Both the position numbers and the translations under genes were made by a program. From contig JAFECT010000003.1 in the NCBI GenBank assembly GCA_018241995.1, positions 434,001-498,000 of the forward strand: a DNA stretch of 64,000 nt, written 5' to 3'. This stretch comes from Pseudomonadota bacterium (GTDB lineage Bacteria > Pseudomonadota > Alphaproteobacteria > Caulobacterales > Caulobacteraceae). This document shows positions 8,884-11,673 of this stretch, piece after piece (the first letter of the stretch is position 1; each line of letters starts with the position of its first letter). The notes under the pieces were generated by a model. That model did no database searches. It was not told the DNA's origin and was given only the letters and a program-made list of their open reading frames with translations.

Positions 8884-8900
8884 GGAGCGAGTGGCGAGCC

Positions 8901-9689
8901 ATGAACGCGCCGACCCCCGTAAACGCCAGGACCAGCGCCGAGCGCGCCGCGACGGCCGAGGCCTGCGACCGCGAATATCGCGCGCGCCGCCTCAAGCCCC
9001 TGCACGCGCTGAAGGCCTTCGGCCGGCTTATGGCCGACAAGGAAGACACCCGGCAGGTGTTCGAGATCATGAACGCCCTGACCGGCCGCTCCACGCCCAA
9101 GGGCTATGCGCGCCTGACCTGGGCGGCGGGCGGCATCGCCTTCCAGCGCGAGGAGTTGGCCAAGCGCTTCTCCGATCCCGTGTGGCTGGCCAAGTTCGAG
9201 CCGGGCACGGTGGGCGCCGCCTATCGCGAGTTCATGGCGGTTGAGAAGCTGACCGCCGAGGGCCTGCGCAAGGACAACGCCGCGGTCTCGCCGTTCGTGG
9301 AGGCCCCGCACGTCTTCGCCTGGTATGCGCGGCGCCTGCGCGACATCCACGACGTCTGGCACGTGCTGACCGGCTATGGCCGCGACGCGCTGGGCGAGGC
9401 CTGTCTGGTGGCCTTCTCCCACGCCCAGACCGGCAACAAGGGCTTCGGCTTCATCGGCCTGATGGCCGCCTTCCGCGTGCGCTCGGAGACCTATCCGGTG
9501 CCGACCAAGCGGGCGGTGTGGGAAGCGTGGCGCAACGGGCGCAAGGCCGACTGGCTGCCGGCGCAGGACTACGCCGCGCTGTTCGCGGAGCCGTTGGAGA
9601 GCGCGCGTCAGCGCCTGGGGATCGCCTCGCCCGCGACCTATCTGTCGGTGCCGGAGGATGTGCGCGCGACCCTGAACTTCGGCGGCTGA
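8901..9689 (+). CDS. Coq4 family ubiquinone biosynthesis protein
   Basis: A 262-residue Coq4-like protein. The signature is RRLRDIHDVWHVLTGYGRD, containing the HDxxH metal/lipid-site motif of Coq4, followed by GEACLVAFSHAQTGNKGFGF. In yeast Coq4 organises the ubiquinone complex and has been implicated in oxidative decarboxylation. Alphaproteobacterial homologues are assigned to quinone synthesis by homology. The ATG at 8901 is preferred; the longer frame would read through the upstream palindromes. An alpha/beta hydrolase gene starts 4 bases after the stop, so the two probably form an operon. Confidence 0.87.
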   Translation: MNAPTPVNARTSAERAATAEACDREYRARRLKPLHALKAFGRLMADKEDTRQVFEIMNALTGRSTPKGYARLTWAAGGIAFQREELAKRFSDPVWLAKFEPGTVGAAYREFMAVEKLTAEGLRKDNAAVSPFVEAPHVFAWYARRLRDIHDVWHVLTGYGRDALGEACLVAFSHAQTGNKGFGFIGLMAAFRVRSETYPVPTKRAVWEAWRNGRKADWLPAQDYAALFAEPLESARQRLGIASPATYLSVPEDVRATLNFGG

Positions 9690-9693
9690 GGAC

Positions 9694-10584
9694 GTGCCGA
9701 AGGTCGCTTCGAACGGCGTCGAGATCGAATACGAGCGCTTTGGTCCCGTCGACGACACGCCGATCCTCCTGATCATGGGGTTGGGCGCCCAGCTGACCCG
9801 CTGGCGGCCCGAATTCATCGAGCGCCTGACCCGGCGCGGCCGCGGGGTGATCCGCTTCGACAACCGCGACGTGGGCCTCTCCACCCACCTGGACAGCGCG
9901 CCCGTGCCGCCGGTGGAAGAGGTGATCGCCGCCAAGCTCGGCGGCCGGCCGACGCCCGCCCCCTACGACCTGTCCGACATGGCGCGCGACGCCCTTGGCC
10001 TCATGGATGCGCTGCAAATCGAGCGCGCGCATCTGGTCGGGGCCTCGATGGGCGGGATGATCGCGCAGGAGACGGCGTTCCTGGCGCCGGAGCGGGTCGA
10101 GACCCTGACCTCGATCATGTCCACCACCGGCGGCTGGGACCTGCCGCCGCCGACGCCCGAGGCGATCGCGGTGATGACCGGGCCCGCGCCGAAGCCGTCG
10201 GACCGCACGGCCTTCGCGGAGCACGGCGTTCGCGTCTGGCGCACCATCGGCAGCCCGGGCTTTCCGCCCGACGACGACGAGACCCGCGCCCGCGTCCTGG
10301 CCGATGCGGACCGCGCCTATGACCGAGCCGGCTATGGCCGGCAGATGGCGGCGATCTACGCCTCCGGAGACCGCCGCGAGCGGGTGCGCCGGATCACGGC
10401 CCCGACCCTGGTGATCCATGGCGATCGGGATCCTCTGGTGCCGGTCGAGGGCGGGCGCGATACCGCCGCCTGTGTGCCGGGCGCGCAACTGATGATCATC
10501 GAGGGCATGGGCCACGACCTGCCCGCGGCGCTTTACGACCGCATCGCCGAGGCCATCCTCGCCAACGTCGCCCGCGCCGGCTGA
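9694..10584 (+). CDS. Alpha/beta-fold hydrolase
   Basis: A 296-residue alpha/beta hydrolase starting at GTG 9694. The nucleophile elbow is GASMGG (Ser118). The acid is in HGDRDPLVP and the His in GMGHDLP, giving a complete Ser-Asp-His triad. The sequence IRFDNRDVGLST is typical of the haloalkane dehalogenase/epoxide hydrolase-like esterase branch. It is cytoplasmic, with no signal peptide. It sits 4 bases downstream of coq4, suggesting co-transcription but not proving a quinone role. The substrate is unknown. Confidence 0.88.
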   Translation: MPKVASNGVEIEYERFGPVDDTPILLIMGLGAQLTRWRPEFIERLTRRGRGVIRFDNRDVGLSTHLDSAPVPPVEEVIAAKLGGRPTPAPYDLSDMARDALGLMDALQIERAHLVGASMGGMIAQETAFLAPERVETLTSIMSTTGGWDLPPPTPEAIAVMTGPAPKPSDRTAFAEHGVRVWRTIGSPGFPPDDDETRARVLADADRAYDRAGYGRQMAAIYASGDRRERVRRITAPTLVIHGDRDPLVPVEGGRDTAACVPGAQLMIIEGMGHDLPAALYDRIAEAILANVARAG

Positions 10585-10686
10585 TTTCGGAAAAATCCTG
10601 ACACGAGGTGTCATTCGGCCTGTGCCAGAAGCGGTGCTATGCGCCGCGCGACGTCTGCCGTTCGCAACTTTCCACTTGGCATAAAG

Positions 10687-10706
10687 ATATAAAGATATCT
10701 TTATAT
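10687..10706. promoter_or_regulatory. Perfect 20-bp palindrome over the start of the EamA gene
   Basis: ATATAAAGATATCTTTATAT is a perfect palindrome and is part of a 9-bp-period repeat (ATAAAGAT twice from 10681). It overlaps the ATG at 10705. It has the form of an ArsR/SmtB-class operator. Similar AT-rich palindromes are reported for SAH-responsive regulators of methionine genes in proteobacteria, but that match is from memory and tentative. A bound repressor would block both transcription and the start region. Confidence 0.6.
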
Positions 10707-11673
10707 GATTATGAATTCCGAATCCGAGATCACCGCCGCCGCGGAAGCGACGAAAATCACCGCGCCGGCGTCGGGCGCGGCGCACGGCCCGCTTAGTCCC
10801 TTCGACCTTACCGCGCTGATCGCCTGCAGCCTGATCTGGGGCACGACCTGGTTCGCCATCACCTGGCAGCTGGGTTCGGTCGCGCCGGTGGTGTCGGTGG
10901 TCTATCGCTTCGGCTTGGCCGCAGCCCTGCTGTTCGGGTGGTGTCTGGTCTCTCGCCGCTCGATGCGCATGAGCCTGCGCCAGCACCTGATCGTGGCGAC
11001 GCAGGGGCTGTTTGTGTTCGGCCTGAACTATGCCCTGGTCTATCTGTCGGAGGAGCGCATCGCCTCGGCCGTTGCGGCCGTGGCCTTCGCGGGCCTCGCC
11101 TTCTTCAACGTGGTGCTGTTTCGCGTGACGCTCGGCCAGAAGGCGCCGCCTGCCGTGTGGATCGCGGCGCTGCTGGGTCTCGCCGGCGTGGGCGTGGTGT
11201 CGTGGGCTGAGCTGCAGCGCACCCACATGGACGCGCGCGCCTGGGCGGGCCTGGGCTTCGCGGGCGCGGCCGTCTGCGCGGCGGCCGTCGGCAACTACTT
11301 CTCGCACAAGGCGCAGGAGGCCGGGACCAAGCTGACCGCCGGCACGGCCTGGGCCATGGCCTACGGCACGGCGTTTCTTGTGATCGCCGCGCTGGTCTCG
11401 GGCTCCAGGTGGACCTTCCAGTGGACCGTCCCCTATGTCGCCTCGCTGCTCTACCTCAGCCTGTTCGGGTCGGTGACGGCCTTCGTGCTCTACTTCGCGC
11501 TGGCCAAGCGGCGCGGCTACACCTTTGCCTCCTACATCAGCGCGGTGACGCCCCTGTTGGCCATGGTCGTGTCGATGGTGTTCGAGCATGCCCGCTGGGG
11601 CTGGGAAGCCTTCGCCGGCATCGCCCTGGTGGTCACCGGGCAGGTGCTGATGATCCGCGGCCGAAAGGCCTAG
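10705..11673 (+). CDS. EamA/DMT-superfamily transporter
   Basis: A 322-residue permease of the drug/metabolite transporter superfamily. About ten hydrophobic segments form two EamA repeats: the first starts at LTALIACSLIWGTTWFAI, the second near AGLGFAGAAVCAAAVGNYFS. The cytosolic N-terminus is polar. Such proteins usually export amino acids or metabolites across the inner membrane. Two nearby ATGs, 10705 and 10711, are possible. A 20-bp palindrome overlaps the start, implying tight repression and perhaps a leaderless transcript. The stop overlaps the convergent gene at 11670. Confidence 0.88.
   Translation: MIMNSESEITAAAEATKITAPASGAAHGPLSPFDLTALIACSLIWGTTWFAITWQLGSVAPVVSVVYRFGLAAALLFGWCLVSRRSMRMSLRQHLIVATQGLFVFGLNYALVYLSEERIASAVAAVAFAGLAFFNVVLFRVTLGQKAPPAVWIAALLGLAGVGVVSWAELQRTHMDARAWAGLGFAGAAVCAAAVGNYFSHKAQEAGTKLTAGTAWAMAYGTAFLVIAALVSGSRWTFQWTVPYVASLLYLSLFGSVTAFVLYFALAKRRGYTFASYISAVTPLLAMVVSMVFEHARWGWEAFAGIALVVTGQVLMIRGRKA

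Follow-up and report, generated by a model that had tools for sequence, protein, structure and literature searches.

SAH inhibits methyltransferases, so that cells must keep its level low, and the textbook route for its removal is recycling by AhcY. The core SahR regulon of alpha-proteobacteria, as set out in the parts of the regulon report covered here (Leyn et al. 2014, PMC4239095), comprises sahR, ahcY, metH, metF and metK, and its motif is a 20-bp palindrome. SahR represses at low SAH and releases when SAH rises, according to the Desulfovibrio work cited in the available text on Ensifer aridi (PMC8877191), and the primer table of that paper gives a length of 1023 bp for the E. aridi sahR gene. 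The bacterial methionine exporters named in the available parts of a review are YjeH, LeuE and BrnFE (PMC8140960). Here we describe a SahR-type palindrome in front of an EamA-family transporter gene and compare the locus with these systems.

Results

A perfect palindrome in front of an EamA gene

The initial annotation of the window (the whole 64,000-base stretch of DNA that was analysed) reported a perfect 20-bp palindrome within positions 10681-10710, and the palindrome ATATAAAGATATCTTTATAT is indeed present there (Table 1). It lies in the intergenic stretch that separates an alpha/beta hydrolase gene from the EamA-family transporter gene, and it is a single copy in the window even when up to three mismatches are allowed. 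One hundred shuffles of the window gave 0 matches to the palindrome, with 0 expected. A second match to the operator pattern, with 4 mismatches and a shift of 8 bp, overlaps the palindrome and contains an upstream repeat of the half-site TAAAGATA. This upstream repeat is also present in the sahR promoter of the window's genome, and the extra half-site may give room for a second SahR dimer. The half-site repeat ATAAAGAY (10682-10704) was likewise seen in sahR promoters and in many Rhizobium LysE promoters.

The alpha/beta hydrolase gene directly upstream (9694-10584) had its best NCBIfam matches among macrolide esterase models (167.8 bits against a cutoff of 420), and because these scores lie far below the cutoffs its product is probably a general esterase. 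A Coq4-like protein (ubiquinone biosynthesis; Pfam E 3.9e-16) is encoded at 8886-9689.

Table 1. Features of the EamA promoter region (window positions) and loci elsewhere considered for the operator
Feature	Position or loci	Strand	Basis
Perfect 20-bp palindrome ATATAAAGATATCTTTATAT, putative SahR-type operator	10687-10706	.	Sequence; window, genome and family motif searches
Operator plus overlapping imperfect upstream half-site (TAAAGATA repeated 8 bp upstream)	10682-10706	+	Second overlapping match
Predicted -35 box TTGGCA	10676-10681	+	5/6 match to TTGACA, 13 nt before operator core
Predicted -10 region, CTTTAT (17-bp spacing) or TTTATA (18-bp spacing)	10699-10705	+	Spacing
Upstream in-frame ATG at the palindrome edge; unlikely start	10705-10707	+	sahR promoter layout
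EamA/DMT transporter gene, likely start ATG 10711	10711-11673	+	Pfam EamA, E 1.7e-22
Operator with cobalamin riboswitch	metE L048, L084, L151, L154, L162, L168, L174; mesX L089, L180; btuB-like L141		
LysE loci, operator upstream of the LysE match in 5 of 5 family genomes and 24 of 42 wider relatives (<=3 mismatches)	L160, L189-L193, L195-L235		

Copies of the operator in the same genome

The genome of the window (3.77 Mb, 19 contigs) was searched with the 16-bp core of the palindrome, ATAAAGATATCTTTAT, allowing up to three mismatches and using the reversed pattern as a control. Three exact copies and one with 2 mismatches were found. The exact copies stood before a gene for an ArsR-methyltransferase regulator (sahR), followed by metF and two MetH parts, before ahcY, and before the EamA gene, the last being the copy in the window; the copy with 2 mismatches stood before metK. 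Since the reversed pattern also matched at 2 places in this genome at up to three mismatches, the grounds for accepting the metK site are its position and the family pattern, and not its score. The EamA palindrome, a full 20/20 match, fits the pattern more closely than the sahR and metK sites of this genome do. The further copies that the initial annotation proposed to look for therefore exist, and their positions before sahR-metF-metH, ahcY and metK support its reading of the palindrome as an ArsR-class operator linked to methionine/SAH metabolism.

The regulator gene behind the motif (an ORF of L001) encodes a protein of 320 aa with an ArsR-type helix-turn-helix (HTH_5) and a methyltransferase domain. 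From this domain make-up, the set of targets and a gene length similar to that in E. aridi, we assign the protein as the putative SahR of this genome, and the targets predicted for it, sahR, metF, metH, ahcY and metK, are those of the published SahR regulon.

Distribution of the motif in Caulobacteraceae and in the class

The core with at most one mismatch was present in 94 of 99 Caulobacteraceae genomes, and the reversed pattern at the same threshold in 0 of 99. We fetched 129 family sites outside the window's genome, drawn from among the matches listed, and assigned them by tblastn: 45 stood before sahR, 34 before ahcY, 34 before metK, 9 before metE and 1 before metF (123 together), and the other six before two metE genes (L162, L168), two mesX genes (L089, L180), one BtuB-like receptor gene (L141) and one LysE-type exporter gene (L160). 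In the class, the exact 18-bp form occurred in 23 genomes among 289; the 32 class sites outside the window's genome comprised 15 before ahcY, 11 before sahR, 2 before metF, 2 before metH, 1 before metK and 1 without assignment.

These counts bear on the reading that the palindrome arose by chance or serves another regulator. AT-rich palindromes can indeed arise by chance, and SahR binding at this locus is a prediction; against this stand the expectation of 0 matches in the window, the absence of the reversed control pattern from all 99 family genomes at one mismatch or fewer, and the location of 123 of the 129 fetched sites before methionine-cycle genes, and we consider a chance palindrome or a site for another regulator very improbable. 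Judged by its motif, the palindrome is almost certainly a landing site for SahR.

In loci of metE, mesX and a BtuB-like receptor gene, operators were also observed directly ahead of cobalamin riboswitches (Table 1). A match to RF00174 lay beside the operator in 10 of the 12 loci scanned, an arrangement that suggests double control of the metE, mesX and BtuB-like genes by SAH and B12.

Promoter layout and start codon of the EamA gene

The palindrome had been described as covering the ATG of the EamA gene. The in-frame ATG at 10705-10707 begins within the palindrome, whose final two bases supply its A and T, and to that extent the description holds; a second in-frame ATG, at 10711-10713, lies outside the palindrome, 6 nt after the core, and is the likely start. 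We compared this arrangement with 45 Caulobacteraceae sahR loci, in 32 of which the start codon stood 5-8 nt after the core, the distance in the other 13 being 20-55 nt. Among the 32 close-spaced promoters, which were used for the box count, 30 had a TTGACA-like box (at least 5/6) starting 12-15 nt before the core, and in 21 it lay at exactly 13 nt; a control window further upstream of the core held a box of at least 5/6 in 0 of 32. The genome's own sahR promoter and the EamA promoter are nearly identical over about 33 bp (CTTGCCATAAAGACATAAAGATATCTTTATATGCTCCATG and CTTGGCATAAAGATATAAAGATATCTTTATATGATTATG, respectively). In ahcY promoters the operator is situated further upstream, ahead of a TTGC box (consensus line).

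Because the TTGACA-like box and the core-to-start spacing match the layout of sahR promoters, the EamA gene probably starts at ATG 10711, and the ATG at 10705 was judged less likely from the same spacing. The family operator usually ends in ..TTTATATG or ..TTTATATC, so that the operator sequence can by itself produce an ATG at its edge; the own sahR promoter has the same operator-edge ATG, but out of frame. The spacing of -35 box, core and start places the operator over the predicted -10 region, which sits within the right half of the palindrome, and the 5' end of a leaderless EamA transcript would accordingly fall at or near ATG 10711. Many mRNAs of Caulobacter crescentus are leaderless (375, or 9.6% of genes, in the covered part of PMC4117421). 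An E. coli-type consensus promoter scan did not call the EamA promoter, whose -10 region is a poor match to that consensus. A palindrome lying over the true start codon is thus probably wrong: the operator would cover the -10 region, and it ends 4 bases before ATG 10711.

The EamA protein and its relatives

The EamA protein contains two EamA repeats (PF00892, two stretches, E 1.7e-22). Its best NCBIfam match was to the model of the E. coli DMT exporter YedA, at 85 bits and under the model cutoff of 270, and RhtA, another E. coli DMT exporter considered as a close relative, gave short weak matches only (E 0.02), which permit no claim of equivalence. No characterised close relative was found in the searches run, and no solved structure of a close relative was found. 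The scan of named genomes with the EamA protein gave no relative, plasmid-borne relatives were absent at 1e-30, and no riboswitch was found near the gene.

Relatives of the protein were detected in 21 of 99 Caulobacteraceae genomes and, at E <= 1e-80, in 122 of 390, the window's own genome being included in both counts; in the class they were detected at 1e-50 in 14 of 385 genomes, 4 of which were already in the set. We examined 43 family relatives (38 of the 121 others at 1e-80 and 5 weaker ones) and 10 class relatives, 53 in all. Each locus was scanned in full with flanks of up to 1.5 kb on either side, although contig ends cut two of the loci short. The operator core at up to three mismatches was found in 0 of the 53. 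The initial annotation had named a lack of conservation upstream of orthologues as a refuting outcome, and such conservation is absent from the relatives examined, which weakens an ancient link of EamA to the regulon, not the claim that the EamA copy is an operator, and points to a lineage-specific addition of EamA; the window's genus is represented by one genome only. An exact SahR-type core was also observed at L265:1557, where another EamA gene (L265:526-1557) has its 3' end and no clear gene follows. It was not counted as a further EamA case because it is not upstream of that gene.

The occurrence of the site in this one genome, together with the near identity of about 33 bp to the own sahR promoter, would also fit an EamA gene that came by chance to stand behind a duplicated or captured sahR-type promoter and is under SahR control without a selected role. 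We consider such a capture unlikely, since the 20/20 palindrome surpasses the sites before sahR and metK in this genome, an AT-rich palindrome without selection would be eroded in GC-rich DNA, and a comparable link between an exporter and SahR exists elsewhere.

A LysE/RhtB exporter with the same operator

LysE/RhtB is a family of amino-acid exporters, and the exporter gene of L160 belongs to it (Pfam LysE, 1.1e-13). Relatives of this LysE protein were present at 1e-25 in 5 of 388 Caulobacteraceae genomes, from three genera, and the operator lay just upstream of the gene in all five (core mismatches 1, 3, 0, 1 and 0); the window's genome had no match of the L160 type at 1e-25. A named-genome scan with an alignment of the family LysE proteins gave 42 loci, the first of them from Caulobacter sp. 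CCUG 60055 and some being the same genes as the family five. The core was found within 200 bp upstream of LysE in 14 of the 42 at up to one mismatch, in 22 at up to two, in 24 at up to three and in 26 at up to four, and elsewhere in these loci 137,404 positions gave 0 matches at up to three mismatches and 6 at up to four. Loci with the site came from Caulobacter, Phenylobacterium, Stappia, Shinella, Rhizobium, Phyllobacterium, Microvirga, Sphingomonas and Sphingosinicella; those without it include Bradyrhizobium, Dyella, Aquabacterium, two Rhodospirillaceae MAGs and three Rhizobium.

In a quick tree with several long branches, built from 41 LysE proteins (all 42 except the partial L236), the site label needed 3 changes, compared with a mean of 12.4 in shuffles, none of 500 being as low. 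SAM/SAH riboswitches were not found in the 16 LysE loci without the operator. No neighbour family was shared among ten flanking frames from 8 LysE loci, and the LysE gene and the operator therefore seem to move as a pair without fixed neighbours.

The LysE genes also bear on what the EamA protein might carry. It is possible, if somewhat doubtful, that SahR controls EamA for another reason, either import or the export of an unrelated methylation or one-carbon by-product. EamA/DMT is a large family whose members carry many compounds, so that membership does not point to a substrate; the DMT superfamily includes the SAM importers of intracellular bacteria, and the btuB-like, metE and mesX targets make the regulon wider than the SAM cycle. 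What speaks against this reading is the independent LysE/RhtB target, since this family of amino-acid exporters includes LeuE, a methionine exporter in the available parts of the review (PMC8140960). By analogy, the SahR-linked LysE exporters make an export tied to the methionine cycle more plausible for EamA, and the comparison of sequences suggests that a single lineage recruited EamA, as an exporter, into a regulon under SAH control in which LysE is used elsewhere.

Discussion

We consider it likely that a SahR operator in a sahR-type promoter controls the EamA gene, and that the EamA protein exports a methionine-cycle compound as an overflow valve. From the observed site, its copies, the regulon genes and the common promoter layout we infer SahR binding, the transcript start, the direction of transport and the substrate as follows. 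SahR bound at 10687-10706 would lie over the -10 region, between the TTGGCA -35 box and the leaderless start at ATG 10711, and would keep the EamA gene off. A rise in SAH, to which the gene would respond by analogy with published SahR work, would release SahR from the operator, and the EamA protein would be produced alongside the products of ahcY, metK and the sahR-metF-metH operon. The enzymes made with it would clear SAH and rebuild methionine, and EamA itself would most likely export methionine, homocysteine, SAH or a related amino acid.

More tentatively, at slightly less than an even chance, SAH-triggered export of a methionine-cycle metabolite may be a general and overlooked arm of the SahR regulon in alpha-proteobacteria. 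Its usual valve would be an uncharacterised LysE/RhtB protein, whose SahR operator is retained in several families of the class (Caulobacter, Rhizobium, Sphingomonas and others), and in the window's lineage an unrelated EamA protein would have been brought under the same type of promoter. If this is true, two unrelated exporter families stand under a SAH sensor, and export would be a second route of relief for methionine-cycle stress. The finding names genes that are candidates for the export of methionine or homocysteine and for which an induction signal is at hand, and these candidates are directly testable in cultured relatives from Caulobacter, Rhizobium or Sphingomonas.

The SahR operator is a known kind of element, and the exporter as its target is new as far as the literature covered shows. 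No report of an exporter under SahR was found in the available parts of PMC4239095 and PMC8877191 or in literature searches on SahR with exporters and on homocysteine exporters. The locus resembles the SahR regulon of alpha-proteobacteria (PMC4239095) in its 20-bp palindrome, its autoregulated ArsR-family repressor and its ahcY, metF, metH and metK targets. However, the covered parts of that report list no exporter among the targets, whereas here EamA, LysE exporters and a BtuB-like receptor are targets of the SahR motif. The genome screen in E. aridi, as given in the available text (PMC8877191), yielded no further SahR sites and hence no exporter. In comparison with YjeH, LeuE and BrnFE, the EamA/DMT protein stands outside the three reviewed families, and control by SahR or SAH is not described in the covered parts of the review (PMC8140960); the proposed overflow role is nevertheless common to all of them, and the SahR-linked LysE genes fall in the RhtB/LysE group of LeuE.
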